Source: Methanoculleus receptaculi
GTDB lineage: Archaea; Halobacteriota; Methanomicrobia; Methanomicrobiales; Methanoculleaceae
Direction of reading: 5' to 3'
NCBI RefSeq assembly: GCF_033472595.1
Contig: NZ_CP137642.1
Span: forward strand, 1,721,384 to 1,785,383
DNA length: 64,000 nucleotides
A program made the position numbers and the translations under genes. Under the pieces are notes generated by a model, which saw only the letters and a list, made by a program, of their open reading frames with translations, ran no database searches and was not told the origin of the DNA. Shown piece after piece: positions 37,634-51,755 of this stretch; the first letter of the stretch is position 1, and each line of letters opens with the position of its first letter.

Positions 37634-37783
37634 TCACCAGAGGCGACCGCAGCCAGGACAGATCATGCTCACTTTTCTGCCGCAGTGCGGGCAGTAAAGG
37701 CCCATGCGCTTGCTATTGACCAGCGGTCTCCCGCACCTCTTACAGTGGATCGGGGCGTCAAACCCGCACTCGTGCCTGACCAT
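37634..37783 (-). CDS. 49-residue double zinc-ribbon protein at the end of the fwd operon
   Basis: Starts in the TGATG overlap with fwdC, so it is translated from the fwd transcript. Four Cys pairs or part pairs: HECGFDAPIHCKRCGRPL, LYCPHCGRKV and MICPGCGRLW. Two zinc (or cluster) sites are likely. There is room for little else. It might help assembly or metal insertion of the formylmethanofuran dehydrogenase; that is inference from position alone. No known family name comes to mind. Confidence 0.7.
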   Translation of the reverse strand: MVRHECGFDAPIHCKRCGRPLVNSKRMGLYCPHCGRKVSMICPGCGRLW

Positions 37784-38553
37784 CAGTCCAGGTATTCGTA
37801 GTTCCCGACAAAAAGATTTCCTTTCCCCCGGTTCGCCACATCGCCGGTAAACCGGATTAGCGTCCGCCCATCCTGCTGGGCGGTGCCGACCTTCCTGAAG
37901 GTAGGGAGCATCCACCGCGCCGTCCCGTAGACGTAGCAGGCGCCATCCTTCATGTTTGCCGCCGGCCGTGTGCAGTCCCCATGGATGATGAGCGTCCCGC
38001 CACGCATCTCGGCGCCGGGCATATCCCCCGCATCGCCGTGAACTACGACCGTCCCGCCGGCAAGGTTCTCCGCCAGGAAATCACCGGCACGGCCAAAGAC
38101 CTCCACGCTACCCCCGGTCATACCCTTACGGCCGCCGCGGTAACCAGAAGCACAGTAATCGGCGGCGTTGCCCCGGCAGATGATCATCCCCCCTGCCATC
38201 TCCCGGCCGAGCCAGCCATCGGCGTTACCCTGGATCTCGATCGCCCCGCCGCTCATGAAATTGCCGCAGTGCATCCCAATATCCCCCAGGACGGTGATCT
38301 TCCCCGCATCCATGTACTCGCCGATCCTCTTCAACCGGGCGGTCTCCCCGGAGAGGACGACCTCCACATCCTCCGCCCGGTCGGCATCGCCCTCCACCAA
38401 GACCGAGAAAGCCTCCTCGATACCGAGCTCCCGGTTCCCCCGCCAGACAGAGAGATCGGTGCCGGAGAGAAAGTTCGCAGGGACGATCGACTCCGCCTCT
38501 ATCGGGATGGACCATCTCCCCATCGGTTTCATTGCAAGCGTGACTCTCATCAT
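37783..38553 (-). CDS. fwdC: Formylmethanofuran dehydrogenase subunit C
   Basis: 256 residues from the ATG at 38553, which overlaps the fwdA stop; another ATG follows at once. FwdC is a right-handed beta-helix built from glycine-rich repeats, as seen in GNFMSGGAIEIQGNADGWLG, MAGGMIICRGNAADYC and LAGGTVVVHGDAGDMPG. It is related to the C-terminal domain of glutamate synthase and holds the Fwd core together. It lies between fwdA and the small zinc-ribbon gene. Confidence 0.94.
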   Translation of the reverse strand: MMRVTLAMKPMGRWSIPIEAESIVPANFLSGTDLSVWRGNRELGIEEAFSVLVEGDADRAEDVEVVLSGETARLKRIGEYMDAGKITVLGDIGMHCGNFMSGGAIEIQGNADGWLGREMAGGMIICRGNAADYCASGYRGGRKGMTGGSVEVFGRAGDFLAENLAGGTVVVHGDAGDMPGAEMRGGTLIIHGDCTRPAANMKDGACYVYGTARWMLPTFRKVGTAQQDGRTLIRFTGDVANRGKGNLFVGNYEYLD

Positions 38554-40250
38554 AGTTCCGTCTCCGTCTCGATGCATCGGCTCCTGCTCAGGTAACTCTC
38601 CTGAACCGGGTAGTTGCTCATCCGGACGGTGTAGTAGCGGTCGAACTTCTCGACGAAATCAGCGTCCTTCCCCATATCATAGTTCTCAGAGACCTTCGGC
38701 CTGACCCAGATGGTGGCGTTGCTTCCGTGAACCACGCACTCGCCCCGGCGGGCGACAACCCTGCCCCGCTTGATCGTGTATTCCGTCCGGGAAAACCCGT
38801 CGATCACCTTCTGGAACTCGGTCGAGGGGTCGACCTCATCGATCCGCATGGGGTAGATCGCAACATCCGCATCCGCACCGGGAGCCAGATGGCCTTTCCC
38901 GAGATCCTGGATCCCGAGCGCCCGCGCCTGGCCAGCCCGTGTCATCACCGCGATCTCGTACCAGTCCATCTCCCGGTCGATCGCCGGGAGAGGCACCCTC
39001 GACCCGGTATCGGGATGGACCTTCGCAAACTCGGCGTCACGGTACCTCCTGCTCATAAGGAGGGCAATGATCTCGGGGTATTTGACAAACGGCGCACCGT
39101 TAGGGTTATCCGTCGTGAGCAGACACTGCCAGGGGCTCTTTGTGAGTAGCGCAAGTTCAAGACCGATCGCCCACATGATCGAGTTGACCAGGTTCTTGCG
39201 CCGGTAGATGACCGGTATGATCCCCGAACCCGTCTCGAGCTCCACATCGTGGTTGCTCCACTTCTCGTGGTGGAGGCGGTAGAGGTTAAACTCCATCGGC
39301 CCATCCGCGGTCATCGTCGTTGTCCGGCCAAACATCACCTGCCCCATATCCATGACTATCTGCGGCCGCATGTTGACGAGGTTTGCGATCGGCTCGCTCT
39401 TTGAAGAGAAGTCCTTCCATCCAGAACCGCCGTAGGCGTGGAACTGGACGTGAGTTGCATACAGTGTCTGGCGTTTCGGGTTCAGGTCAGGGACAAGACC
39501 CATCGACCCCAGGGTGCAGGTGTAGTTACCCGGAGTGCCCAGGTTGTTGCAGTGGAGGTGAACTGAGTGAGGCAGGTGGAGGAGTTCGTTTGCCTCGATC
39601 ACCGAGCGGATGATCTCTGCCGGCGTCACCTCAAAGTAGGGCACAGGGTCGCGGATGCATGATACGTTCTTGCCCCACTGCCAGGCCTCGGTACCGCCAG
39701 GGTTTGTGAGCTTGACGGCAAACCCCTTCACCGCTGTGAGCATCCAGGCTATGATTGCAGCGACCCTTTTCACGTCTCCATCGCGGATCGCCTCCATGAT
39801 CGACCAGTTCCCATCAAAGAGGGTGTTTGCCATGGTGTCCTGGAGAGGGGTGTAGGTGAACTCCTCGTGGGTGTGCCGGGCCTCAAGCGGCGCCATCGCC
39901 CCCTCAAGCAGTGTGGTGTAGCCCATCACGCTGTAGCGGTAACTGTTGCCATAGGTCGTCGGGACGCTGTAGCCGGAGGTGGCGTGCATCGGCCCGCGGC
40001 GGGGCGTCCTCCCCGCCCGCATATCCTCCGGGCTCATGTAGCGCCCGAAGTTCACCTTCGTCCCGCAGATATGGGTGTGTGAGTCGATCCCACCGGGCAT
40101 CGTGAGCATGCCACGGGCATCGATCACATCCGCGGCAGCGCTCACCTCCTCGACGATCTTCCCATCAAGGATGGCGATATCCATCGTCTCGCCGTTGATC
40201 CCGCTGAGAGGATCGATCACATGGGCGTTCTTAACCAGGAGTTCGGTCAT
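38550..40250 (-). CDS. fwdA: Formylmethanofuran dehydrogenase subunit A
   Basis: 566 residues. FwdA is the amidohydrolase-type subunit that condenses formate with methanofuran at a dinuclear zinc site. Ligands His58 and His60 lie in GGIDSHTHICGTKVNFG; later conserved stretches are VHLHCNNLGTPGNYT, ATHVQFHAYGG and LLTTDNPNGAPF with the catalytic Asp. It overlaps fwdB by 4 nt upstream and fwdC by 4 nt downstream. Confidence 0.96.
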   Translation of the reverse strand: MTELLVKNAHVIDPLSGINGETMDIAILDGKIVEEVSAAADVIDARGMLTMPGGIDSHTHICGTKVNFGRYMSPEDMRAGRTPRRGPMHATSGYSVPTTYGNSYRYSVMGYTTLLEGAMAPLEARHTHEEFTYTPLQDTMANTLFDGNWSIMEAIRDGDVKRVAAIIAWMLTAVKGFAVKLTNPGGTEAWQWGKNVSCIRDPVPYFEVTPAEIIRSVIEANELLHLPHSVHLHCNNLGTPGNYTCTLGSMGLVPDLNPKRQTLYATHVQFHAYGGSGWKDFSSKSEPIANLVNMRPQIVMDMGQVMFGRTTTMTADGPMEFNLYRLHHEKWSNHDVELETGSGIIPVIYRRKNLVNSIMWAIGLELALLTKSPWQCLLTTDNPNGAPFVKYPEIIALLMSRRYRDAEFAKVHPDTGSRVPLPAIDREMDWYEIAVMTRAGQARALGIQDLGKGHLAPGADADVAIYPMRIDEVDPSTEFQKVIDGFSRTEYTIKRGRVVARRGECVVHGSNATIWVRPKVSENYDMGKDADFVEKFDRYYTVRMSNYPVQESYLSRSRCIETETEL

Positions 40251-41536
40251 CGCTTCAGAGCCTCCTGCATCAACGCATACATCCGGGTGAGGACATCCTC
40301 ATCGGAGGGGTAATCGCTCGACACAACCTTCTTTGTCCGGATCGGCACCCCGTCCATCCGGTAGGCTGTTCCTTCCGCATCGACCCCGGTCACCGCCACA
40401 GGGATCTGGACGCTGCAGAACGCGGTGGTGGCGTTGGGGTAGGGGTCGAGCTGGACAACAGGGATCTCAGCAAGGTGTTCGATGCACTTGCGCGGGAAGT
40501 GCGCGGCCGGGTCGCTCCCGACTATCAGCGCGGCGTCGCACTCTTTGCGAGCCAGGACGTCCACCGCCGTCGTCTCCCCGGGGTTGTAGAAGGCGATGCC
40601 CCGGGAGAAGTCGATAGCGAAGGGGTAGCCTGTCATCCATGTGTTGACTTCGTTCGAACCGTAGACGTTGTAGTGGCCACGCATAGCCGATATGGTAAAC
40701 TTCGTGTGCCTGTTCAGTTCCGTGACGAGCTCGATGGCATTCCGAACGTTCTTGTACTTCCCGGGGATCATGGTGAGGCCGAGCCCGAAGTAGACCGCCC
40801 CGAACTTCGCGTTCAGGCAGAGGTCTGCCACCCGGATCAACTGGTCCCGCGTGACGCCCGCGACCGTCGGCGGGATGGTGTCGGTCTTACCCCTGACGAT
40901 CGCCCGGAGCGCCGAGAGGACGGCATAATCCCCGCCGGGCCTGACCCTGACGAACTCGTCGGCAATGTTTGCCGTCCGGGTCTTCCTGACATCGACGACT
41001 ATCACCTTCCGGTCGCGGAACGAGTTCTCCAGGAAAAAACCCTCCGCGTAACACGTGTAGCGCGAGAGGTGACGCGGGTGGGCGTCGATCGGGTTTGACC
41101 CCCAGTAGATCACAACGTCCGCCCGGTTCTTCACGACGCCGAGCGTGCAGCCCGGGTGCCCGACCTCCTGGATGGCCAGCACGGATGGGCCGTGGCAGAC
41201 CGAGGAGGTGTTGTCGATCACCCCCCGCACCAGTTCGGCCATGTGAACCCCGACACACTGCGCCTCGCCATGGGTGCCGCTCCAGCCGTAGAGGAGCGGG
41301 CGTTCGGCGTCAAGGAGCATCTCGGCGGCGTATCGAATGGCCTCATCATAGGAGATATCCTTCCAGGTCTTCCCCTCGCGCCGGATGGGGGTCTTGAGCC
41401 TCTCGCCGCCCAGGAACTTCGTCGCCCCCAGGTCGCAGGCGTTTGTGACGCCGACCACCCGGCCGCTCTCGATCTCGACCTCAATATCGTCGCAGAGACA
41501 TCCACAGAACGGGCAGACCGCGTCTTTAACGATCAT
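40247..41536 (-). CDS. fwdB: Formylmethanofuran dehydrogenase subunit B
   Basis: 429 residues from the ATG at 41536. FwdB carries the molybdopterin- or tungstopterin active site that reduces CO2 to formate, with one [4Fe-4S] cluster. The cluster motif is CPFCGCLCDD (Cys8, 11, 13, 15). The metal ligand is Cys114 in SSVCHGPSVLAIQ, a Cys codon, not TGA, so this is not the selenocysteine form. Tungsten or molybdenum cannot be told apart. It overlaps fwdD by 11 nt and fwdA by 4 nt. Confidence 0.95.
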   Translation of the reverse strand: MIVKDAVCPFCGCLCDDIEVEIESGRVVGVTNACDLGATKFLGGERLKTPIRREGKTWKDISYDEAIRYAAEMLLDAERPLLYGWSGTHGEAQCVGVHMAELVRGVIDNTSSVCHGPSVLAIQEVGHPGCTLGVVKNRADVVIYWGSNPIDAHPRHLSRYTCYAEGFFLENSFRDRKVIVVDVRKTRTANIADEFVRVRPGGDYAVLSALRAIVRGKTDTIPPTVAGVTRDQLIRVADLCLNAKFGAVYFGLGLTMIPGKYKNVRNAIELVTELNRHTKFTISAMRGHYNVYGSNEVNTWMTGYPFAIDFSRGIAFYNPGETTAVDVLARKECDAALIVGSDPAAHFPRKCIEHLAEIPVVQLDPYPNATTAFCSVQIPVAVTGVDAEGTAYRMDGVPIRTKKVVSSDYPSDEDVLTRMYALMQEALKR

Positions 41537-41915
41537 ATGCCAGCCCTCCAAGGTCTTCCATCAGTCCGTAAACCGATTTCGGCTCTTCGTCGGTCGGTTC
41601 GATCTCAACCTCGTGAGACTTGAAGTCCGGCATCCCGGTGGAACGGGTATCAGCGGCCAGGATGTGGTTTGCATAGGGCCCGTACGGGACAAAGACCGTC
41701 CCTATCTCAACCTCGACCGACGCTTCCGCACGCATCACGACCTCGCCGGCCGGGCCACGCACAAGGATCGGATCGCCGTCATCGACCCCGAGTTCGAGCA
41801 TATCAAACTCGTGCATGAAACAGGTCGAGGCCTCCCGGGCGTACTCTGCCGAACCCTTGTTCTCGACGGTCACACCCTGGTTGACCGTCCGCCCGGTGTT
41901 CATAAGGAACTTCAT
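41526..41915 (-). CDS. fwdD: Formylmethanofuran dehydrogenase subunit D
   Basis: 129 residues from the ATG at 41915 (ATGA overlap with the ferredoxin stop); the frame is open upstream but would run inside the ferredoxin gene. FwdD is the small beta-barrel that completes the pterin-cofactor pocket of FwdB, like the C-terminal domain of formate dehydrogenases. Landmarks: NTGRTVNQGVTVENKGS, LGVDDGDPILVRGPAGEV and GPYANHILAADTRSTGMP. Confidence 0.93.
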   Translation of the reverse strand: MKFLMNTGRTVNQGVTVENKGSAEYAREASTCFMHEFDMLELGVDDGDPILVRGPAGEVVMRAEASVEVEIGTVFVPYGPYANHILAADTRSTGMPDFKSHEVEIEPTDEEPKSVYGLMEDLGGLAYDR

Positions 41916-42523
41916 GACCCCACCTCGTCCAGGAACTGCACCCCTTCCACCATCCGGGCGACACGCATCGCGCCGCTCGGGCACTGGGTTTCACAGGTCT
42001 TGCAGCCTGTGCACTTCTCCTCGTGGAGGATCTGCACCCGGCCGCCCTTGACCCGCATGATCACATCGTCGCTTGTTGATGTCCCTGTCGCCGCAAGCCG
42101 GGGATCGATCTGGCGGTTGATCGGGCATGCGACACAGCAGTTCCCGCAGCGCATGCAGAGGCTCTCGTCGACCTCCAGGTGGTAGGAGTGCCAGAACGCC
42201 GTTGCATCGCGGCCGGCGAGTTCCAGGACGCGGCCGCTTGAGAGTACACCCTCAGGGCACGCCTCGACACAGAGACCGCACCGGATGCAGTGACCCGGGT
42301 AGACCTCGGGCTCCCACTGCTCCTTTCTGCGGAGGACGGCGATCGCGTCGGGTGCCGGGCAGATCATCATGCAGGTGAAACACCCGGTGCACTCCTTCTC
42401 CGTCCGGGTCGGGTAGCCCTTGAAGTAGGGCGGCGTCACGAGCGGCGCGGTCTTTACGAAGAAGAACTTCTTGAGCCATTCGGGCCTGAGGAACTCCCGG
42501 ACGTAGTAGACGATCGATCGCAT
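41912..42523 (-). CDS. Ferredoxin with four [4Fe-4S] motifs, between eha and fwd genes
   Basis: 203 residues. Four CxxCxxCxxxC motifs: Cys45/48/51/55 (CTGCFTCMMIC), 79/82/85/89 (CIRCGLCVEAC), 123/126/129/133 (CMRCGNCCVAC) and 171/174/177/181 (CTGCKTCETQC). The first two and last two may form two ferredoxin-like halves. The N-terminal 35 residues (YYVREFLRPEWLKKFFFVKT) resemble the linker of NuoI/EchF-type subunits. It is 4 nt from ehaO and overlaps fwdD. It is placed to carry electrons from the hydrogenase to Fwd; this is inferred from order and cluster content. Confidence 0.85.
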   Translation of the reverse strand: MRSIVYYVREFLRPEWLKKFFFVKTAPLVTPPYFKGYPTRTEKECTGCFTCMMICPAPDAIAVLRRKEQWEPEVYPGHCIRCGLCVEACPEGVLSSGRVLELAGRDATAFWHSYHLEVDESLCMRCGNCCVACPINRQIDPRLAATGTSTSDDVIMRVKGGRVQILHEEKCTGCKTCETQCPSGAMRVARMVEGVQFLDEVGS

Positions 42524-42527
42524 CGCT

Positions 42528-43616
42528 TCACCTTTCGTTGCAGGCGATACAGGGATCGCTGCTGATGAACGTCGAGGTAACGTCGGCGATTGACGTGGCG
42601 TCCACCACCATGTAGTGGGCGCAAGCCTCGATGTTCATGATCGACGGCGTCCGGATCGCGATATCGACCACCCTGCCGTATTCGTCGGTCTTGATAGTGT
42701 AGGTCAGCTCGCCCCGGGGGGCCTCACCAGCATACGAGGCCTCGCCTGCCCTGCAGAGGCCGCCTCCCCGGATGGGGCCGTCGGGCAGAGTATCTACGCA
42801 TTTACGGATCAGGTCGATGCTCTGGAAGACCTCCTGGAACCGGACCATGACCCGGGCGAAGTTGTCGCCCTCGGTCCGGGTTATCTGCTTGAAGTCCAGC
42901 GCCTGGTAGGTCGGGTGGCGGAGGCGCAGGTCGCAGTCCTCGACGCCGCTTGCACGTGCCGTTGGGCCGACTGTGTGGGCGCGGATCGCATCCTCGCGGC
43001 TCATGAACCCGATCCCTTTGCTCCTGAGCCCTATCAGGGGCCCGGTCTCAAAGATCCGGACGTAGCGCTTCAACTCATCCTCGACCTTTGCGAGATCGGC
43101 GAGCATCACCGCGGCGTCCTCCGGGAGGAGGTCGAACCGGACGCCGCCAGGGATCATGTAGGCGGTGTTGATCCTCGAACCGGTGATCCGCTCCAGGTTG
43201 TCGAGCACCCTCTCCCGGGTGTTTAAGAGGTACATCGCAAGCGTCTCGTGCTCGATCGTGTAGCAGTAGGAGAAGTTCGCAATGAGGTGACTGGCGATCC
43301 GGTCGAGTTCGTTCGCTACAACCCGCAGGTAGGCCGCCCGCGGCGGAACCGCTATATCGCTGATCTCCTCCATCGTCTCGATGAAGACCATGTTGTGAAC
43401 GACCGAGCAGATGCCGCAGACCCGTTCGGCAAGGAACATAACCTCCTGCCAGGGACGGCCGCGCATGATCCGCTCAATCCCCTTCTTCATGTAGCCGAGC
43501 TCGACCTCGGTATGGAGCACCCGCTCGCCCGCCGTCTCGCACTTGAGGCGGACGGGCTCTTTCCAGCAGGGGTGCATCGGCCCGAGCGGGATGGAGACGT
43601 CGACGGTCTTCTTCAT
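42528..43616 (-). CDS. ehaO: Energy-converting [NiFe] hydrogenase large subunit (EhaO-type)
   Basis: 362 residues from the ATG at 43616 (overlaps ehaN by 4 nt); a longer upstream frame lies inside ehaN. The Ni-Fe site is intact: Cys67 and Cys70 in ERVCGICSVVH and Cys356 and Cys359 in SDPCIACNER. The protein ends right after this motif, so no C-terminal peptide needs cleavage, as in several membrane-bound hydrogenases. It oxidises H2 for ferredoxin reduction driven by ion flux. Assigned to Eha rather than Ech or Mbh because of the DUF1959 neighbour. Confidence 0.93.
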   Translation of the reverse strand: MKKTVDVSIPLGPMHPCWKEPVRLKCETAGERVLHTEVELGYMKKGIERIMRGRPWQEVMFLAERVCGICSVVHNMVFIETMEEISDIAVPPRAAYLRVVANELDRIASHLIANFSYCYTIEHETLAMYLLNTRERVLDNLERITGSRINTAYMIPGGVRFDLLPEDAAVMLADLAKVEDELKRYVRIFETGPLIGLRSKGIGFMSREDAIRAHTVGPTARASGVEDCDLRLRHPTYQALDFKQITRTEGDNFARVMVRFQEVFQSIDLIRKCVDTLPDGPIRGGGLCRAGEASYAGEAPRGELTYTIKTDEYGRVVDIAIRTPSIMNIEACAHYMVVDATSIADVTSTFISSDPCIACNER

Positions 43617-44068
43617 GACTGTTTTTCCTCGTAATCCTTGAATATCAGCGGTGCAACCGAGAGAATGGCAGAGAGGATCTCCGTTGGTCGTGGAGGGCAG
43701 CCCGGAACCTCTGCGGCTATGGGTATATAGTTCTTGACCGGTGGAGTAGTCAAAGAACCCTTCCGGGCATAGACACACCCCGATATCGGGCAGTTCCCGA
43801 TAGCGACGGCCACTTTCGGCTCCGGGATCTTATCCCAGATGTCGCGGAGTTTGTCCACCCACTGAGGCGTTACGGAGCCTATCACCAGGAGGATATCAGC
43901 CTCACGGGGGTTGTTGTGGACGTAGATCCCGTACTGCTCGATATCATAGCGGGGAGCAAGACAGGCAAGCACCTCGATGTCGCAGCCGTTGCATGAGCCG
44001 ACATCGACGTAACTGACGTGGATCGACCTCGACCGAACGGCGTTTTTTATGCTCTGGAGTATGCTCAT
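43613..44068 (-). CDS. ehaN: Energy-converting [NiFe] hydrogenase small subunit (EhaN-type)
   Basis: 151 residues. The proximal [4Fe-4S] ligands are Cys26 and Cys29 (GSCNGCDIEVL), Cys93 (GNCPISGC) and Cys124 (VPGCPPRP). It is related to NuoB of complex I and pairs with EhaO on the cytoplasmic side of the membrane. It overlaps its neighbours by 4 nt on both sides. Confidence 0.93.
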   Translation of the reverse strand: MSILQSIKNAVRSRSIHVSYVDVGSCNGCDIEVLACLAPRYDIEQYGIYVHNNPREADILLVIGSVTPQWVDKLRDIWDKIPEPKVAVAIGNCPISGCVYARKGSLTTPPVKNYIPIAAEVPGCPPRPTEILSAILSVAPLIFKDYEEKQS

Positions 44069-44448
44069 GATATGACCGCCTCCCTGATCCGCTCCCTGCC
44101 TCTCGCGATTGCCTCCTCAATGGGCATATCCCGGGCCAGCGCTCTGGTCTCTTCGTAGATCTCTTTCATCCTCTCCATGTCCAGAAGCGGTATATACCGT
44201 GTGAAGAGTTCGCACCCGAGCTCCTTTGCCAGCGGGTCGCCCTCATCGGCATACCGCAGCCCCATCTCCCAGCGGGTCTCTATGTTCTCCAGCAGCGACA
44301 TATCGAGACGCTGGATCAGCAGCCTGCGCAGTTTTGCATCACTCACGCCGAGCCGGCGCGCAATCGCTCTGACGGCCGCATCGTGTTTTGTGCTCGTCAG
44401 TATGTTGTACTTCAGAGGCCGGAGGTCTTTCTCATAGAGGAACTTCAC
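44065..44448 (-). CDS. ehaM: EhaM, DUF1959 protein
   Basis: 127 residues, soluble and helical, matching the DUF1959 family (EhaM): LKYNILTSTKHDAAVRAIAR, RLGVSDAKLRRLLIQRLDMS and AEGDPLAKELG-like YADEGDPLAKELG. This family occurs only in Eha operons and so fixes the type of the hydrogenase. Its biochemical role is not known. It overlaps the genes on both sides by 4 nt. Confidence 0.85.
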   Translation of the reverse strand: MKFLYEKDLRPLKYNILTSTKHDAAVRAIARRLGVSDAKLRRLLIQRLDMSLLENIETRWEMGLRYADEGDPLAKELGCELFTRYIPLLDMERMKEIYEETRALARDMPIEEAIARGRERIREAVIS

Positions 44449-44696
44449 GCAAGCACCCCCGACGCGTTTGCCACCGCGTAGGCGAGAAACCCGAGCACCA
44501 TCACCCAGAGCAGCGCCGTCTCGTAGCGTTTCAGGGCGAGTTCGTCGTGCATCCAGGTGAGGGTCGCGGCGACGGCGAGCAGGATGACTCCTGCCAGTGC
44601 CTGGCCGGTCACGCTCCCGTTTTGGGCGATCTGGACAAGGAATACCATGACGTAGAAGACCGCTCCCGCCGTGATCAGGAGCCGTAACGCGCTCAT
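44445..44696 (-). CDS. Small membrane subunit (EhaL- or EhaK-like)
   Basis: 83 residues with two or three membrane helices (RLLITAGAVFYVMVFLV; TGQALAGVILLAVAATLTWM; LLWVMVLGFLAYAVANA). Position between the NuoH-like subunit and EhaM fits EhaK or EhaL (DUF2104); only one such gene is present here where the reference operon has two. The letter is a guess; membership of the complex is likely. Confidence 0.75.
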   Translation of the reverse strand: MSALRLLITAGAVFYVMVFLVQIAQNGSVTGQALAGVILLAVAATLTWMHDELALKRYETALLWVMVLGFLAYAVANASGVLA

Positions 44697-45538
44697 CCCA
44701 CGATCACCCCGAGGATGAGGATGTAGATGACGAGCGCGCCCGTCACCAGGCTCTGCACCGTCACGGTGTCGTAGGGCGAAAGCATGGGGGTGATGGCACA
44801 GACGAACGAGAGCGATACCAGGACGAGGAGCATCAGGAGCAGCGTCAGGGCAAGCGGCAGCGATCCGATGAAGATGAGGACGAACGCGTAGAGGAGGACG
44901 TAGGTCTTGAGGGCGTACGCCACCTCGAGCCCGGCGCGCCAGACTCCGAAGTGTTCGGTCATGTTCCCGCTCACGATCTCTTTTGCCTCGATGATCGAGA
45001 ACGGGCCGTAGTGCATCTTGGAGAGGATCACGAGATACATCGCCACGGCCGCCGGGAACGCGATGCCGAGGAGCGGGCCGTGCACCTCCTGGTAGGCCGT
45101 GATATCCGCGATCGCGAGCGAGCGGGTGAAGAAGTAGATCGCGACGACGGTGACCAGGAGCGGCAGCTCCGACGCTGCCGAGATGACCGACCGTATAGCC
45201 CCGAACTTCGTGTACGGCGAGCCCGTCGAGAGCCCCATCCCGTGCTCCACGATCTTGTGCAGCAGATAGATCCCGAAGAGGATCAGGATGCTGCCTCCCG
45301 TGAGGAGGATGAAGAGGGCCCCGCTCCAGATGGCGATCGCAACAAAGACGATCCCCACAAAGAGCGTCTGACTGGCTGTCTTTGGAATCCAGGTCTCCTT
45401 GAAGGAGAACTTCAGGGTATGCAGGATCTCCTGCCAGATCGGCGGTCCGGGGCGTCCCTGGATCCTCGCGATGACTTTCCGGTGGATGCCGTGGAAGAGC
45501 AGGCCGATGAAGGTGGCAAAGAGCAGGTATTCGATCAT
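44693..45538 (-). CDS. ehaJ: EhaJ, NuoH-like membrane subunit
   Basis: 281 residues, about eight membrane helices, homologous to NuoH of complex I, the subunit that joins the hydrogenase arm to the ion-translocating membrane part. Typical loops: RIQGRPGPPIWQEILHTLK near the N-terminus, STGSPYTKFGAIRSVISAAS, and the acidic SIIEAKEIVSGNMTEHFG. It overlaps the following gene by 4 nt and is 1 nt from ehaI. Confidence 0.9.
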   Translation of the reverse strand: MIEYLLFATFIGLLFHGIHRKVIARIQGRPGPPIWQEILHTLKFSFKETWIPKTASQTLFVGIVFVAIAIWSGALFILLTGGSILILFGIYLLHKIVEHGMGLSTGSPYTKFGAIRSVISAASELPLLVTVVAIYFFTRSLAIADITAYQEVHGPLLGIAFPAAVAMYLVILSKMHYGPFSIIEAKEIVSGNMTEHFGVWRAGLEVAYALKTYVLLYAFVLIFIGSLPLALTLLLMLLVLVSLSFVCAITPMLSPYDTVTVQSLVTGALVIYILILGVIVG

Positions 45539-45539
45539 G

Positions 45540-45743
45540 TCAGTATCCTATGAACGGGATATCTTCTTCTCCGGGTTTTGCGTTCCACCACAATGCGATG
45601 AAGATGACGAAAGCCGGGAACGCAACGACCGCGATCAGTTCCGCGGCCAGGGCCGGGAGGTAGCCGAGAGCGGCAAGCAACCCGGTCGCCGCCGCAACCA
45701 ACCCCGCGGCAAGCCCGACGATCAGTGCAGTCTGTTTCTTCAT
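45540..45743 (-). CDS. EhaI-like small membrane subunit
   Basis: 67 residues, two membrane helices (ALIVGLAAGLVAAATGLLAAL and ELIAVVAFPAFVIFIALWW), ending in a conserved-looking NAKPGEEDIPFIGY. Position between the NuoH-like and MbhH-like subunits fits EhaI. Assignment rests on order and size. Confidence 0.75.
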   Translation of the reverse strand: MKKQTALIVGLAAGLVAAATGLLAALGYLPALAAELIAVVAFPAFVIFIALWWNAKPGEEDIPFIGY

Positions 45744-45749
45744 AGTTCA

Positions 45750-46418
45750 TCACATCGATAGGACGATTTCTATTACGCGCAGGAAGAGGAGGAGCGAACT
45801 GACGTGGATCATCAGGATGAACGGCGCTCCCTGCGCTCTCGTGATCTCCGCCTTTGCAATGTAGAACGGCGCCATGCCCTCTCCCATGACGCCGAGCACC
45901 AGGAACGCCTTCGCGAAGAGGGGAACCGCCACCGCGCCGGTGAAGAGTTCCCACATGCTCAACGTGCCGGTGTTCGCGAGGATGATCGCCGCGCCCCCAA
46001 AGAGCGGGACTGTGGCGAGCATCGCAACGATACCGTACTGGAACGCGGCGTTTAAGACATGCCGGTTCCGGTAGGCTGCGACGATGCCGATGTTCGTGAT
46101 CCCCACCATCGAGGCGAAGAGGGTGAAGTTGAAGACGTCCCCGGTCACCATCGCCCCGAGCGTAGCGAGCCCGCAGGCGATCGCCATGAACCGCTGGAAC
46201 CGCAGGAGGTCCGGGTCGACCTCCTTCGTGTAGTAGGCGTCGCCGCCGAACGCGATATCCACCTGCCGCTCCGGGCGGCTCACGATGACGAGCATCGTGA
46301 AGATGAGGGCAAAGACGAAGAGCACTGCGGTGTAGGGGCTGAAGTAAGCGACGATGTCGCCGAACTCCAGCACGAAGAGTTCCGGCCCGCCGATGTTCGG
46401 CGTCGGGAGATTAAACAT
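45750..46418 (-). CDS. ehaH: EhaH, proton-pump-like membrane subunit
   Basis: 222 residues from the ATG at 46418 (overlap of 8 nt with ehaG). About six membrane helices. It resembles the N-terminal part of NuoN/MrpD-like antiporter subunits: FQRFMAIACGLATLGAMVTG, VFNFTLFASMVGITNIG, and a Lys in VPLFAKAFLVLGVMGEGMAP that corresponds to the proton-path lysine. It ends 6 nt before ehaI, the largest gap in the cluster. Confidence 0.85.
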   Translation of the reverse strand: MFNLPTPNIGGPELFVLEFGDIVAYFSPYTAVLFVFALIFTMLVIVSRPERQVDIAFGGDAYYTKEVDPDLLRFQRFMAIACGLATLGAMVTGDVFNFTLFASMVGITNIGIVAAYRNRHVLNAAFQYGIVAMLATVPLFGGAAIILANTGTLSMWELFTGAVAVPLFAKAFLVLGVMGEGMAPFYIAKAEITRAQGAPFILMIHVSSLLLFLRVIEIVLSM

Positions 46419-47016
46419 CCGGACCACCTCCCCGCATCGTTCCCACAAGGGACATCTTTGCCATCACCTTGATGAGGATTGCTCCTCCGGCGATCATCAC
46501 AGCAAAGAACCAGTACCCCGGAAGGAACATAAAGATAAAGAATGCTCCTATCCAGAACGCCCACGCGTAGCCGCTTACGGTCTCGATCAACTCGAACCGC
46601 TCGGCGTGTCCCCGGCACATGAAGTAGAAGACCACGCCGACCGCGGCGATTACTCCGCCGGTGAATCCCGATAGGACGATGCCGTAGGCGACCAGAATCA
46701 GCGCGAGGATGCCCGGAGCACTGTCCATCACCTCGATTCGGAACGCCGGGCCCGCCGGCGCCCGGAGCCCTTCCTTCGTGATGTAGACCTCCGAGATGGC
46801 CATCAGTTCGGATATCCCGACGACGAGCCCCGGGAGGATGAGCGCCTCGGCAAGGTCGGTGGCGACGAGCGCGATCAGGACGAGGGCGAGGATCTCCGCG
46901 AGATCGGTGAGGAGGATCCGGTGCAGATCGTCCTTCTCCCGGACGAGGGCGGTAAACCCGATGATGATCGCAGCCGCGACGACGACCAGACCGACCGGGT
47001 AGGCAATCTCCATCAA
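46411..47016 (-). CDS. ehaG: EhaG-like membrane subunit (DUF2105 type)
   Basis: 201 residues, six or so membrane helices. Stretches such as DLAEILALVLIALVATDLAE and ALILPGLVVGISELMAISEVY carry acidic residues within helices. The family occurs only in Eha complexes. Overlaps ehaF by 4 nt and ehaH by 8 nt. Confidence 0.82.
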   Translation of the reverse strand: MMEIAYPVGLVVVAAAIIIGFTALVREKDDLHRILLTDLAEILALVLIALVATDLAEALILPGLVVGISELMAISEVYITKEGLRAPAGPAFRIEVMDSAPGILALILVAYGIVLSGFTGGVIAAVGVVFYFMCRGHAERFELIETVSGYAWAFWIGAFFIFMFLPGYWFFAVMIAGGAILIKVMAKMSLVGTMRGGGPDV

Positions 47017-47477
47017 CCATCCCTCCTGAAGAGGTAACTTGCAATCCCGAACGCTACGAAGAGGATGCTCGTCTCAACGACGGTATCCAGCCCCCGGGTG
47101 TTGTAGAGAATCTCGTCGAGGATGCCGCCCGGGTGAGCGACGATCGTCGTCCCCATATGGTGGGTGATATCGGCGAGCCACTGGCTGAACGGTGTCAGGT
47201 AAGCGGTCACGTAACCGACGTAGGGCGAGTTCTCAGGGTACTGCGCCTTCACGGGGGTCGTCCCGAAGGGCACGCCGCCCCGGTCGTAGGGATCGAGGGT
47301 GCTTGCGGGGTCGAGGGTTTTGGGGTAGAGCTGGTCGTCCTGGTAGGCGATGAACGGCAGGGTGACGAGGCCGAGTATGACGACAACGATTGCAAGGAGC
47401 GCATACAGCGCGGTGAGGTTCTCGACCCTTGAAGTCGTCGCGGATATCCGGGTGATGATCGACCGGTTTGGCGTCAT
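47013..47477 (-). CDS. ehaF: EhaF-like membrane subunit (DUF2106 type)
   Basis: 154 residues. One helix near the N-terminus (LYALLAIVVVILGLVTLPFI), a long loop on the outer side (YPKTLDPASTLDPYDRGG), and a second helix at the end (TVVETSILFVAFGIASYLF). RGLDTVVETSILF resembles the MrpB/MbhF-type C-terminal helix. It overlaps its neighbours by 4 nt. Confidence 0.8.
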   Translation of the reverse strand: MTPNRSIITRISATTSRVENLTALYALLAIVVVILGLVTLPFIAYQDDQLYPKTLDPASTLDPYDRGGVPFGTTPVKAQYPENSPYVGYVTAYLTPFSQWLADITHHMGTTIVAHPGGILDEILYNTRGLDTVVETSILFVAFGIASYLFRRDG

Positions 47478-47719
47478 TCTACGGCCTCCTTGCGCTCGAT
47501 AACCCGGACGAGGACGAAGGTCGAGATCGCCGTAACCCCGATGAACGTCAGTAGGGCGAGCATCTCGTCATAGGCGAGCATGATCAGGAGGAGGCCGAAC
47601 GCGGGGATCTCGAGGCTGATCAGCCTCCCGAGGTAGGTCATCGGGCGCGGGAACCCGGCAGCGATCACCCCGACGATGAGGATGATGCAACCGAGGACGA
47701 ACTCAGGCGTCATGGGCAT
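47474..47719 (-). CDS. ehaE: EhaE-like membrane subunit (DUF2107 type)
   Basis: 81 residues, three membrane helices; GRLISLEIPAFGLLLIMLAY resembles MrpC/NuoK-type subunits. Start at 47719 or at an ATG two codons later. Overlaps ehaD by 17 nt and ehaF by 4 nt. Confidence 0.78.
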   Translation of the reverse strand: MPMTPEFVLGCIILIVGVIAAGFPRPMTYLGRLISLEIPAFGLLLIMLAYDEMLALLTFIGVTAISTFVLVRVIERKEAVE

Positions 47720-47939
47720 CCCTCCCGCAGATCAGCAGTATGATGATCGTGGTGACGGGAACAATCAGGCTGACGGCGATGAGGACGTCCAGGTAGCCGC
47801 GGGCGGCGATGAATGGTGCGATGCCGCCGAAGGTGATCCCGACAGCGATCAGCTTGTCGAAGCGATCCCGCTGGAGGTGGGCGCTCACCGCCCCGATGAG
47901 CGCCACGGCCGCGAAGAGAAGGACGAGGAGGTCATCCAT
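47703..47939 (-). CDS. ehaD: EhaD-like membrane subunit (DUF2108 type)
   Basis: 78 residues from the ATG at 47939, three hydrophobic segments (DDLLVLLFAAVALIGAVSAH; AVGITFGGIAPFIAARGY; AVSLIVPVTTIIILLI). Order and size fit EhaD. A start six codons earlier would extend it into ehaC. Confidence 0.77.
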   Translation of the reverse strand: MDDLLVLLFAAVALIGAVSAHLQRDRFDKLIAVGITFGGIAPFIAARGYLDVLIAVSLIVPVTTIIILLICGRDAHDA

Positions 47940-48174
47940 GCCGCTCACCCCCCGCATACGTGCTCGCTATGGCGTTTGCCTCGAGCGTCGAGCCGACGAA
48001 GTAGGCCGCGGCCGCAACGAGGGAGAGAGGATGGTTGAGCAGCAGGACGATCGAGGCGGCAATGGCGAAGTTCATGACGTTCACGTAGGGGAGCTTTCTG
48101 CCGGTGTTCTTCTCAAGAGTCGCCCTGATCGCGGCAAAAACCGCCAGAGCGGCCACGAGGTAGAGCGCGATCAC
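47932..48174 (-). CDS. ehaC: EhaC-like membrane subunit
   Basis: 80 residues from a GTG that overlaps the ehaB stop. Two hydrophobic segments (ALYLVAALAVFAAIRATLE; IAASIVLLLNHPLSLVAAAA), separated by NTGRKLPYVNVMNF. Assigned by order and size. Confidence 0.76.
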   Translation of the reverse strand: MIALYLVAALAVFAAIRATLEKNTGRKLPYVNVMNFAIAASIVLLLNHPLSLVAAAAYFVGSTLEANAIASTYAGGERHG

Positions 48175-48656
48175 TGCCGGACCCTCCAGAGCCGTGCAAG
48201 AAGCCTGCTCGCGTGAACGTGAGATAGCCCCTGGATGGTGAGGATGGCGACAACCATGCCGGCGATAAAGTCTGTTGCAGCAAAACCGACCTGGGTGAAG
48301 CCGTAGACGACGAACGTGGCGAGGACTGCGCCGGTGGTCCCGGCGTAGCCGGGATCGTGGCAGATGCGGTTGCCGATGAAGACGAACGCGGCCGCGATGA
48401 GCCCGCCGGGGATACCGGCGACGTAGACTCCGCAGGCAGCAAGGAGCGTCCCGGCCGAGGCGTCGGGGGAGCAGACGATGTTTCCCATCATGGTGCCGCC
48501 GGCAAGAGCGCCGCCGCCGGCTTCGATATCCCGCGCGACGGCAGACGCTCCGCTGACGCCCCCCGCTTCCGGCAACCTGAAGAGAATATCGACGGTCACG
48601 AAGAGAATCCAGCTGATGGTCGCTGCCGCCAGGATATGGAGGAACTCGTCCAGCAT
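48171..48656 (-). CDS. ehaB: EhaB-like membrane subunit, first gene of the cluster
   Basis: 161 residues with four membrane helices and glycine-rich loops (GGVSGASAVARDIEAGGGAL; AGGTMMGNIVCSPDASAG). It fits EhaB. No gene corresponding to EhaA precedes it: the upstream 335 nt are A/T-rich and non-coding. The promoter for the whole eha-fwd cluster must lie there. Confidence 0.78.
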   Translation of the reverse strand: MLDEFLHILAAATISWILFVTVDILFRLPEAGGVSGASAVARDIEAGGGALAGGTMMGNIVCSPDASAGTLLAACGVYVAGIPGGLIAAAFVFIGNRICHDPGYAGTTGAVLATFVVYGFTQVGFAATDFIAGMVVAILTIQGLSHVHASRLLARLWRVRQ

Positions 48657-49386: not shown

Positions 49387-49785
49387 CTACGTCTCCTTTG
49401 CCATCCGTGCGATCTCCTCCGGGGATAGAGAGGCATACCTCTGATCGGACACCACCGATCTCATAAGGTCCGGATCGGCCTCCAGCCGGCTGGTGAGGCA
49501 TTCCGTAAGCACCCGGAGCAAAGGGGACTCCGATTCCGCACGCGAGTAGTACATCCACAGCCCATCGCGACGAGCGGTCACCAGGCCTGCATGGCGGAGA
49601 ACTGTGAGGTGACGCGAGATCTTCGTCTGGGGCATCGCGAGGGCCACCTGTATCTGGCAGACGCAGAGCTCGCCTTCCCCGAGCAGAAGGAAGATTCTGA
49701 GCCGGGTCTCATCCGAGAGAGCCTTAAAGATCGTGACATAGGAGTGAAGATTGTCAGCCTCCCGGCGATGCGACCGGACGGTCAT
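49387..49785 (-). CDS. arsR: ArsR-family metal(loid)-responsive repressor
   Basis: 132 residues. A winged helix starts at FKALSDETRLRIFLLLGEG; the metal-site motif ELCVCQIQ lies in the classic alpha-3 position of ArsR (ELCVCDL in plasmid forms), and the recognition helix is MPQTKISRHLTVLRHAGLVT. Such a protein binds As(III) or Sb(III) and releases DNA. GGAGGTGG precedes the ATG at good distance. It is second in a two-gene operon, 40 nt after a permease gene whose promoter carries a 16-bp palindrome, the probable operator. Confidence 0.9.
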   Translation of the reverse strand: MTVRSHRREADNLHSYVTIFKALSDETRLRIFLLLGEGELCVCQIQVALAMPQTKISRHLTVLRHAGLVTARRDGLWMYYSRAESESPLLRVLTECLTSRLEADPDLMRSVVSDQRYASLSPEEIARMAKET

Positions 49786-49825
49786 ATGCCGCCACCTCCT
49801 TTCATACGCGCGGATCCAGTGAGAT

Positions 49826-50788
49826 TCATGCGATCACGCCCCCGAGCTGGAACGCCTGCAGGACGATGCCGGTGAGGATCGCGACCCCCAGCACCGTGGC
49901 GACGAATGCTGCGACAAGCCTGCGCTCAAATATCGAAGCAAGAAGGGTCACTTCCGGAATGCTCGCGCCCGCCCCGCCGATGATGAGCGCCATGACCGCA
50001 CCGACCCCCATCCCCTTGGCAGCAAGTACGGCACTGATGGGGATGATCGTCTCTGCCCGGATATACATGGGGATGCCGATGATCGCTGCGACCGGGATAG
50101 CGAGCGGGTTCTCCGGTCCCGCGAGGGAGACGATCAGGTCTTCCGGGACAAAACCGTAGATGAAGGCCCCTATGGCGGCACCGAGGACGAGGTACGGCAG
50201 TACCTGGCGGAAAAGCGTGAACGCAAACCCGAACGCCGAACGCATGCGCGTACTATGGGTGGGCGGCGCTACGCCGGCGGTCCCGCACGCGCAGGAACAA
50301 CATCCGGCTGCCGCTGTCCCCTCATCACTACTCTTCTCTGTTCCAACCGCTTTCACGAATCGCAGGTACCCGCGGCGTTCGAGCGTAAGACCGGAAAGGA
50401 CGGCGATAATGAATGCAATGACGCCGTAAACCAGCGTCGGAAACGGGCCGACGAATGCGAGGGCCAGGAAGATGATGATCGGGTTTAAGAGCGGCGACGC
50501 GAAGAGGAATGCCATACTTGCCCCGAAGGGAACTTTCGCCTTCAGCAGCCCTACCAGCACCGGAATCGTCGAGCAGGAGCAGAACGGCGTGAGGGCACCA
50601 AAGACGGCTCCCATGGCGGTTCCGAGCACCGGGTACCTGCTGGTGAGCGCGCGTTTGATCTTCTCTTCCGGGACGTATTCCTGGATGAGTCCGACGACAA
50701 AACTGATCCCGATAAAGAGCAGGACAAGTTCGGCGGTGATGACCAGGAACGTCTGGACCACGTCGACAAGATCGTTGATGCCTATCAT
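49826..50788 (-). CDS. ArsP/DUF318-type permease
   Basis: 320 residues, about eight membrane helices in two halves. The family motif is seen as TPFCSCSTIPVLVGLLKA, and FASPLLNPIIIFLAL follows. The central cytoplasmic loop contains a Cys-rich patch (GCCSCACG), possibly metal binding. Relatives export trivalent organoarsenicals (ArsP) or other metals. It leads the arsR operon and has an operator just upstream. A second member is at 55.2-56.3 kb. Confidence 0.85.
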   Translation of the reverse strand: MIGINDLVDVVQTFLVITAELVLLFIGISFVVGLIQEYVPEEKIKRALTSRYPVLGTAMGAVFGALTPFCSCSTIPVLVGLLKAKVPFGASMAFLFASPLLNPIIIFLALAFVGPFPTLVYGVIAFIIAVLSGLTLERRGYLRFVKAVGTEKSSDEGTAAAGCCSCACGTAGVAPPTHSTRMRSAFGFAFTLFRQVLPYLVLGAAIGAFIYGFVPEDLIVSLAGPENPLAIPVAAIIGIPMYIRAETIIPISAVLAAKGMGVGAVMALIIGGAGASIPEVTLLASIFERRLVAAFVATVLGVAILTGIVLQAFQLGGVIA

Positions 50789-50802
50789 AATACCATATAT
50801 TC

Positions 50803-50818
50803 GTATATTCGAATATAC
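50803..50818. promoter_or_regulatory. 16-bp perfect palindrome, probable ArsR operator
   Basis: GTATATTCGAATATAC, 15 nt upstream of the permease start codon, with a minus-strand TATA box (TTATATATG, about 50821-50829) just beyond. It would cover the transcription start, so a bound repressor should block initiation. Confidence 0.6.
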
Positions 50819-50999
50819 ATATATAAGTATCCTTTTGCGATGGTGGCGGTGACACGCTGCGTCGGATGCCGGTGAAGGCCACGATCAGGATAGGCGGCGG
50901 GGAGACCAGAGATCTCCCGCGTCAGGGGCACCGCCTGAAAAACAGGGGCGAGCGCGGCCGCACCGGGGCATCCGGCGCGTGTCGAGGACAGCCCGCGGT

Positions 51000-51347
51000 T
51001 CACCGCCGGATCGCCTCAAGCACGGCGGCCGAAAGGCGCTTGATCTCGTCGAACCGCGGTTCGGCCATCCCGTTCTTTGCGATGCCGCAGTCGGTCGCAA
51101 CGATATGCAGGTGCGGCTCGATGCCGAGCGCCCTGAGTTTCTTCTTCCCGCAGCAGTCGGCGCACCCGTCCAGCACCAGGACGCGATCCGCGTGCCGGAT
51201 CACAGTCTCCAGCGCCGCCGTCGGCCGGGTGGCCGCGATGCAGGCCTCGACCGCTCCACAGGAGCAGTGGAGGAGCATCGCCCCCGTCTGGGCGGTCAGC
51301 TTCCCGGTGTTCGAGATCCCCGAACAGGCGATGACAGTGACCGCCAA
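51000..51347 (-). CDS. DGC-domain putative zinc-binding protein
   Basis: 115 residues from a TTG start directly after the arsC stop. Family landmarks: VIACSGISNTGKLTAQTG at the N-terminus, a middle Cys set (LLHCSCGAVEAC), and the name-giving VLDGCADCCGKKKL, then IVATDCGIAKNG. Four or more Cys could bind zinc or arsenic. Genes of this family occur with arsenic operons, but the role is unknown. A truncated relative lies at 54.1-54.4 kb. Confidence 0.8.
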   Translation of the reverse strand: MAVTVIACSGISNTGKLTAQTGAMLLHCSCGAVEACIAATRPTAALETVIRHADRVLVLDGCADCCGKKKLRALGIEPHLHIVATDCGIAKNGMAEPRFDEIKRLSAAVLEAIRR

Positions 51348-51755
51348 TCAGTTCCCCCCGAACGTCGCGTCGATCCAACCCGTAATCTCGTCCCGGATCC
51401 GCCGGACGCCTTCCATGATCTCCTCGTCGGTGCCGGCGAGGTTCGACGGGTCCGGGAACTCCTGATGGATCTCCTCCTTCGCCCAGGGGAAGAAGGGGCA
51501 GATCCCGCCCTCGCAGACGGCGACAAGGAGATCCATCTCCTGTTCGTCGAACTCACCGAGATCCTTTGAGCGGTGGCCGGAGATGTCGATCCCGATCTCG
51601 GCCATCGCCCGGACCGCATAGGGGTTCAGGGTTCCAGGTACCGTGCCGGCCGAGAAGGCCTCGTAGCGGTCGCCGTAGCGGGCGTTCATGTACCCCTCCG
51701 CCATCTGCGAGCGGGCGGAGTTGTGGGTGCAGACGAAGAGGACTTTCTTCTTCAC
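51348..51755 (-). CDS. arsC: Arsenate reductase ArsC (low-molecular-weight phosphatase type)
   Basis: 135 residues. It reduces arsenate to arsenite with thioredoxin. The active loop CTHNSARSQMAEG holds the first Cys and the Arg; the later Cys pair sits in VAVCEGGICPFFPWA; the acid is in EFPDPSNLAGTD. The disulfide cascade of this type uses thioredoxin, and two mini-thioredoxins are encoded in the same operon. It is 4 nt from the DUF2703 gene. Confidence 0.92.
   Translation of the reverse strand: MKKKVLFVCTHNSARSQMAEGYMNARYGDRYEAFSAGTVPGTLNPYAVRAMAEIGIDISGHRSKDLGEFDEQEMDLLVAVCEGGICPFFPWAKEEIHQEFPDPSNLAGTDEEIMEGVRRIRDEITGWIDATFGGN

Follow-up and report, generated by a model that had tools for sequence, protein, structure and literature searches.

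How cytochrome-less methanogens supply CO2 with low-potential electrons other than by Hdr bifurcation has been debated since 2009 as a question of ferredoxin pools. A 64,000-nucleotide stretch of the Methanoculleus receptaculi genome (NZ_CP137642.1, positions 1,721,384 to 1,785,383; hereafter the window) raises that question at a single locus, where genes for the membrane-bound [NiFe] hydrogenase Eha run directly into a gene for a four-cluster iron–sulfur protein and into genes for a formylmethanofuran dehydrogenase (Fwd). Is the protein between the two enzymes a ferredoxin, or is it part of the machinery itself? Here, we use sequence comparison and structure prediction to identify this protein, which we denote the adaptor, as a single polypeptide combining a hydrogenase wire subunit of the NuoI/EchF/MbhN type with an FwdG-type 2[4Fe-4S] domain; its gene is linked to Eha, and it is lost together with Eha and one clade of Fwd. 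Eha, the fused adaptor and the linked Fwd paralogue probably constitute an ion-gradient-driven machine that converts H2 and CO2 to formylmethanofuran.

The gene arrangement and the idea of electron flow from Eha to Fwd are not new, because both have been published. In M. marisnigri, M. labreanum and M. hungatei, the three Methanomicrobiales whose genomes were known at the time, eha adjoins formylmethanofuran dehydrogenase genes, and Eha was inferred to reduce the ferredoxin on which Fmd draws (Anderson 2009, PMC2686161); only two fwd genes are linked to eha in Methanocorpusculum parvum, and separate ferredoxins were proposed for the Eha-linked and the Hdr-linked Fwd (Gilmore 2017, PMC5563889); and in the metagenome-assembled genome (MAG) of a Methanoculleus, Fwd loci adjoin Ech, Eha, bifurcating and formate-dehydrogenase systems (PMC11201294; 2024). 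Eha lineages have also been noted to differ in the ferredoxins that they use (PMC9635834). What is new here is the 'ferredoxin' as a NuoI–FwdG fusion, half hydrogenase and half Fwd subunit. As far as they could be searched, the three papers treat the link as a ferredoxin and do not describe the fusion, its inseparability from ehaO or the co-loss; the fusion was also not found in the open literature searched, and a description outside that literature is possible.

Two halves of the adaptor

The adaptor carries four CxxCxxCxxxC motifs. We split it at residue 113 and searched with each half separately as a profile. The C-terminal half matches FwdG over its full length and well above generic two-cluster ferredoxins: the best single-domain PDB chains are FwdG proteins (9sfi_U, 4.6e-22; 5t5i_G, 6.5e-18; 7bkb_L, 3.7e-13), with generic 2[4Fe-4S] proteins at about 1e-9 or worse. 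Within its own genome, this half finds FwdG of the Hdr–Fwd cluster as the best non-self match (7.0e-15; next, 3.4e-7), and FwdG in turn retrieves the adaptor first (1.9e-9 versus 2.8e-7 for the next). A full-length, reciprocal match to FwdG above generic ferredoxins was found for adaptor residues 114–203 only.

The N-terminal half, searched as a profile of 30 sequences, contains two [4Fe-4S] motifs and an upstream NuoI-type stretch. It matches NuoI-type subunits, namely MbsN 6u8y_N (6.1e-11), HycF 7z0s_F, complex I NuoI and MbhN 6cfw_N, and its best non-self match in the genome, at C1:544552, is EchF of the Ech operon. Polyferredoxins outscore these subunits in the PDB search, and we discounted them because their scores sum many weak repeats; NuoI and FpoI NCBIfam matches of the adaptor are below cut-off. 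An AlphaFold2 model of the adaptor (mean predicted local distance difference test (pLDDT) 81; predicted template modelling score (pTM) 0.57) has FwdG 5t5i_G of M. wolfeii as its top PDB match (TM 0.86 on the target, 1.8 Å over 78 columns). Its C-terminal half has a pLDDT of about 90; the N-terminal half is modelled more weakly (about 70 at residues 21–50), so that the NuoI-type assignment rests on sequence.

All eight cysteines of the two N-terminal clusters are present in the window adaptor. The second cysteine of the first [4Fe-4S] motif (C48 in the window) is glutamate, alanine, serine or threonine in many relatives across several families, with a histidine directly in front (CSHELRC, CQHALFC; for example, L043, L044, L046, L049, L050, L053, L177, L178, L195 and L200). 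With this cysteine replaced, the first cluster may be differently ligated.

The adaptor stays with Eha

To place the adaptor we compared ehaO neighbourhoods in 94 distinct Methanomicrobiales genomes, each covering at least 3 kb downstream of ehaO. The adaptor gene lies directly 3′ of ehaO, 4–92 nt apart, in all 94. Behind it, 70 loci have the full fwdDBAC set, 13 a partial set (including nine Methanocorpusculum-type loci with fwdA and fwdC only) and 11 no fwd gene, the last drawn from several genera of one family (f2) plus one genome of another (f4). Thirty same-genus loci are concordant as far as their sequence extends, and six families of the order share this gene arrangement, at EhaO identities of 60–94%, a recurrence that we judge to be far beyond chance. 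One locus, on a Methanospirillaceae MAG contig (L075:11080-14272), is the only one lacking the adaptor in about 3 kb after ehaO, which could be loss or misassembly.

Because the adaptor directly follows ehaO in every sampled genome, even in the 11 without adjacent fwd, we assign it to Eha. Physical proximity of eha and fwd genes is not obligatory. The original prediction, made from the DNA letters, had spoken of a ferredoxin shared by both enzymes that may be a fixed subunit. Equal sharing is contradicted by an adaptor that remains with ehaO when fwd moves away, and on this ground and that of its NuoI-type half we rejected a free, shared ferredoxin. The fixed subunit gains support from both the NuoI/EchF-like and FwdG-like fusion and its inseparability from ehaO; by these comparisons the four-cluster protein is not a free ferredoxin and is most likely a fixed subunit. 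The small zinc-ribbon gene that ends the window cluster was considered as a Fwd part (FwdE-like), a candidate that we rejected as it still stands behind the adaptor in 9 of the 11 fwd-less loci.

Co-loss with one Fwd paralogue

Presence and absence were scored by thresholds in the draft genomes of 132 Methanomicrobiales at least 90% complete, with EhaO absence read from per-genome best E-values. EhaO is present in 105, and so is the adaptor in each of these. The other 27 have no EhaO orthologue, their remaining scores being Ech-like only (1e-39 to 1e-78); the adaptor is missing from every one of them too (best E 1e-7 to 1e-10), as is the Eha-type FwdB (best 1e-122 to 1e-140, versus 1e-160 or better where present). 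Eha-clade FwdB occurs in 104 of the 105 genomes with EhaO, and in the exception (G177) the contig ends right after the adaptor. Both states are found within at least five genera (g7, g8, g13, g16 and g35), which therefore implies several independent events, although genomes are non-independent points. From three genomes, Eha had been called universal among Methanomicrobiales, although it is missing from these 27 near-complete ones.

A tree of 60 FwdB sequences places all Eha-linked copies, the relocated copies of family f2 and a set of FwdD–FwdB fusions in one clade (100/100 support), apart from the Hdr-linked type and from a third type. The M. receptaculi genome has one FwdB of each of these three main types and no FwdD–FwdB fusion. 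The linked Fwd thus represents, by its sequence grouping, a separate paralogue clade present only where Eha is present, and because both are always lost together, it is functionally tied to Eha. Linkage by chance genome order was rejected in view of the conservation and the co-loss, as was the idea that the relocated fwdDBAC of family f2 is a different Fwd type, which its place in the Eha-type clade contradicts.

Composition of the cluster

The window belongs to a single contig of 1.98 Mb. Its Eha–Fwd cluster comprises 19 genes on the minus strand, from 48656 to 37634 of the window (Table 1): 13 Eha genes, the adaptor with its 4×[4Fe-4S] motifs, fwdD-B-A-C and a zinc ribbon. Pfam matches and position thereby correct an earlier count of 12 Eha genes and 18 in total. 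The genes are uninterrupted, with no internal stops. With ATG or GTG starts picked for minimal overlap, neighbours overlap by 1–17 nt or lie 1–6 nt apart, the largest gap (6 nt) being that between EhaH and EhaI, and the zinc-ribbon gene shares 1 nt with the fwdC stop; re-checked coordinates and strand agree with the earlier description of an 11-kb run in one direction without interruption, with overlaps of 1–17 nt and no gap above 6 nt.

The Eha-specific membrane subunits (DUF2105–2109, PF10125) and EhaM are all present and in order, identifying the hydrogenase, by its core subunits, as a lineage variant of Eha. EhaM, kin of the MTH396 structure 1nxh, is encoded here, although Anderson 2009 (PMC2686161) calls subunits A and M absent in Methanomicrobiales. 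Open reading frames and domain searches revealed no EhaA and none of the polyferredoxins EhaP/EhaQ known from Methanothermobacter in the cluster, which has the adaptor instead. EhaO keeps both [NiFe] CxxC metal-ligand pairs (RVCGIC and DPCIAC, aligned to MbhL 6cfw_L), and their cysteines are invariant in an alignment of its relatives. FwdA, FwdB and FwdC all exceed curated equivalog cut-offs (TIGR03121, TIGR03129 and TIGR03122), and FwdD matches the W-specific exception model NF042908 at 9.3e-31, under that model's cut-off. The tungsten/molybdenum-ligand region of 5t5i_B, SVCHGPS, is retained in FwdB with the ligand cysteine region intact, and FwdA aligns to 5t5i_A from end to end. Judged from these alignments, the catalytic residues of EhaO, FwdB and FwdA look intact. 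The cluster has no separate FwdF or FwdG gene, whereas the Hdr-linked Fwd has both; its FwdG-like domain sits within the adaptor.

Table 1 Genes of the Eha–Fwd cluster, with window coordinates and the main support for each assignment
Feature	Coordinates	Strand	Support
EhaB-like membrane subunit, 161 aa	48171..48656	-	first gene; 50-58% identity to same-place gene in eha operons of Methanobacteriales, Methanococcales, Archaeoglobi
EhaC (DUF2109), 80 aa	47932..48174	-	PF09882 E=3.7e-28
EhaD (DUF2108), 78 aa from ATG at 47939	47703..47939	-	PF09881 E=1.2e-20
EhaE (DUF2107), 81 aa	47474..47719	-	PF09880 E=1.6e-26
EhaF (DUF2106), 154 aa	47013..47477	-	PF09879 E=2.7e-58
EhaG (DUF2105), 200 aa	46411..47013	-	PF09878 E=2.1e-72
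EhaH, NuoN/antiporter-related ion-channel subunit, 222 aa	45750..46418	-	PF10125 E=1.9e-98
EhaI, small membrane subunit, 67 aa	45540..45743	-	position and conservation across the order
EhaJ, NuoH-type subunit, 281 aa	44693..45538	-	PF00146 E=1.2e-28
EhaK or EhaL, small membrane subunit, 83 aa	44445..44696	-	position; no Pfam match
EhaM (DUF1959), 127 aa	44065..44448	-	PF09218 over cut-off; family profile matches MTH396 structure 1nxh_A at 6.9e-18
EhaN, hydrogenase small subunit (NuoB-type), 151 aa	43613..44068	-	PF01058 E=4.4e-27
EhaO, [NiFe] large subunit, 362 aa	42528..43616	-	best solved relative MbhL 6cfw_L E=7.7e-55
Adaptor (four-cluster 'ferredoxin'), 203 aa	41912..42523	-	residues 1-113 NuoI/EchF/MbhN-type, 114-203 FwdG-type
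FwdD, 129 aa	41526..41915	-	PF01568 E=3.3e-16, over cut-off
FwdB, W/Mo catalytic subunit, 429 aa	40247..41536	-	TIGR03129 601.8 bits; 5t5i_B and 8rja_B alignments
FwdA, metal-dependent amidohydrolase subunit, 566 aa	38550..40250	-	TIGR03121 790.5 bits; 8rja_A and 5t5i_A alignments
FwdC, 256 aa	37783..38553	-	TIGR03122 238.2 bits
Small double zinc-ribbon protein, 49 aa	37634..37783	-	remains with Eha where fwd has moved away

Upstream of the cluster, a tRNA-Leu gene lies on the opposite strand, separated from ehaB by an AT-rich stretch. Adjoining the eha operon, window positions 49387-51755 hold an arsenic-resistance-like cluster with an ArsR regulator, an ArsP-type permease, a DGC zinc-binding protein and a low-molecular-weight phosphatase/ArsC-like gene.

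Proposed mechanism and alternatives

In complex I-type enzymes, the NuoI-type subunit sits on the NuoB-type small subunit, and in Fwd, FwdG passes electrons to an FeS cluster of FwdB. We infer that the NuoI-like half of the adaptor would be seated on EhaN, which is NuoB-type, and that its FwdG-like half would dock on FwdB. Electrons from H2 would then pass from EhaO through EhaN, the two N-terminal and the two C-terminal adaptor clusters to FwdB, the fusion making an uninterrupted Fe–S wire from H2 to CO2. FwdB would reduce CO2 to formate, which FwdA would condense with methanofuran, and inward ion flow via EhaH/EhaJ would pay for lowering the electron potential. Functionally, this would amount to a formate hydrogenlyase driven by the gradient and run in the CO2-reducing direction. 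It would operate in parallel with the Hdr-linked, bifurcating Fwd, whose genes lie elsewhere in the genome, and would probably serve to top up intermediates; an anaplerotic role of Eha is given in PMC11346949. We see about an even chance that a single stable supercomplex in the membrane unites Eha, the adaptor and the Eha-type Fwd and uses H2 directly to reduce CO2 to formylmethanofuran, powered by the ion gradient and without free ferredoxin. The direct H2-to-formylmethanofuran module of the original prediction is partly supported, with the adaptor as a probable fixed subunit and a Fwd tied to Eha by co-loss, but it loses the equally 'shared' ferredoxin; nor is gene adjacency obligatory, as 11 of 94 loci are devoid of fwd.

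Several observations weigh against such a machine. In those 11 genomes, the Eha–Fwd association would have to form in trans, and an Archaeoglobi MAG has Eha and the adaptor with no fwd gene near. The two adaptor halves are not confidently packed in the AlphaFold2 model, as the pTM indicates, and FwdG is close to generic ferredoxins, with the reciprocal search separating them by only two orders of magnitude. Another Fwd paralogue in the same genome (C1:556069) also has no FwdF or FwdG beside it, and Fwd copies may therefore borrow those subunits. Finally, in a Methanoculleus transcriptome, eha subunits were down under shaking and eha-linked fwd genes unchanged (PMC12008871), a response that lends no support to one strictly co-regulated eha–fwd transcript.

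A reading that we consider possible but rather unlikely has the four-cluster protein as a fixed wire subunit of Eha whose C-terminal half only docks and reduces soluble ferredoxin, with Fwd encoded nearby as the main consumer of that ferredoxin. The absence of fwd genes from some eha loci suits it. It is the published view, in which ferredoxin is the intermediate (Anderson 2009, PMC2686161; Gilmore 2017, PMC5563889, with a dedicated ferredoxin). A C-terminal half that is FwdG-like from end to end, and not of the generic ferredoxin kind, speaks against it, and the strict loss of one Fwd paralogue with Eha, the Hdr-linked Fwd being retained, points to a private partner. It is well known, all the same, that in other group 4 hydrogenases the NuoI-type subunit reduces soluble ferredoxin. 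That the linkage serves co-expression only, with Eha feeding the cell's ferredoxin and the linked Fwd using FwdG and FwdF of the Hdr–Fwd cluster in trans, is improbable: two Eha-less genomes examined (L232 and L233) keep the full FwdG-F-HdrCBA-MvhD-FwdDBAC cluster yet have lost the Eha-type Fwd clade, and therefore FwdF and FwdG do not suffice to keep it. Consistent with co-expression, FwdF and FwdG are encoded elsewhere in the genome, the Eha-type fwdDBAC adjoins the Hdr–Fwd cluster in four f2 genomes, and eha and linked fwd genes responded differently in the transcriptome cited above. We regard it as highly improbable that the module runs oxidatively, taking formylmethanofuran back to CO2 while releasing H2 and exporting ions. 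In principle, both energy-converting hydrogenases and Fwd can work in reverse, but nearly all sampled relatives are Methanomicrobiales, known hydrogenotrophs for which CO2 reduction is the growth direction, and no result of the present analysis favours oxidation.

A subunit made up of a hydrogenase-wire half and a Fwd-docking half recasts the ferredoxin debate as a structural one, of whether there is a membrane Eha–Fwd complex or not. Such a complex would explain the constant co-loss of the Eha-type Fwd paralogue with Eha, and would add a third route, next to bifurcation and soluble ferredoxin, for supplying the initial step of methanogenesis; an ion-driven machine making formate from H2 and CO2 would also be of interest for CO2 fixation.

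Relocated and additional Fwd genes

Fwd genes also occur in other settings. Locus L034 (G000:C1:478000-497000) is a core-pathway cluster with ftr on the opposite strand, then fwdG-fwdF-hdrC-hdrB-hdrA-mvhD-fwdDBAC, then mcr- and mtr-like genes, and locus L035 (G000:C1:546000-565000) has a third fwdDBAC set, flanked by neither FwdF nor FwdG and with a moeA-like gene, between an Ech operon and a second mcr-like cluster. Orphan FwdD–FwdB fusion genes of the Eha-type clade encode about 570–600 aa (L220:7884-9671, L223:8551-10272, L221, L222, L226 and L228-L230); MoeA-like genes lie close to several of them, and molybdate ABC transporter genes close to one. In Methanocorpusculum the fused DB gene stands apart from eha, with molybdate-transport and MoeA-like genes nearby; there, these fusions seem to complete the fwdA–fwdC pair at the eha locus, in what looks, by analogy, like the catalytic-subunit swap of FmdBC/FwdBC in Methanothermobacter (PMC12350162).

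Comparison with known systems

The loci of Anderson and Gilmore (PMC2686161, PMC5563889) and of PMC11201294 share with the window the eha–fwd adjacency and the inferred electron flow from Eha to Fwd, with a dedicated ferredoxin already proposed. Methanothermobacter Eha (EhaA-T, PMC3087415) has the same order of EhaB-J, M, N and O, but with separate EhaP/EhaQ polyferredoxins and EhaR-T, and with no fwd in its transcription unit, whereas the window has a single fused four-cluster subunit. Fwd is likewise wired to another redox machine through FwdG/FwdF Fe–S chains in the Hdr–Fwd supercomplexes (M. hungatei 7bkb; Methanothermobacter, PMC12350162). In those assemblies a bifurcating Hdr complex donates the electrons; in the window, the donor would be an ion-driven membrane hydrogenase, with FwdG fused and no FwdF. 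The closest solved relatives of the window FwdA and FwdB belong to the F420-reducing Fwd of an ethanotroph (8rja, PMC11493965), in which the oxidoreductase FwdI replaces FwdF and FwdG is kept, but FwdI links to F420, not to a hydrogenase. Because that enzyme is also without FwdF, separate FwdF and FwdG are not strictly defining for Fwd, and together with 7bkb it is a precedent for rewiring Fwd. An analogy in the way of working is E. coli formate hydrogenlyase (7z0s), in which a group 4 hydrogenase is joined through the Fe–S subunits HycF/HycB to a molybdopterin formate dehydrogenase; it differs from the proposed Eha–Fwd machine in running in the opposite direction, using another formate-enzyme family and having no FwdA or FwdC.

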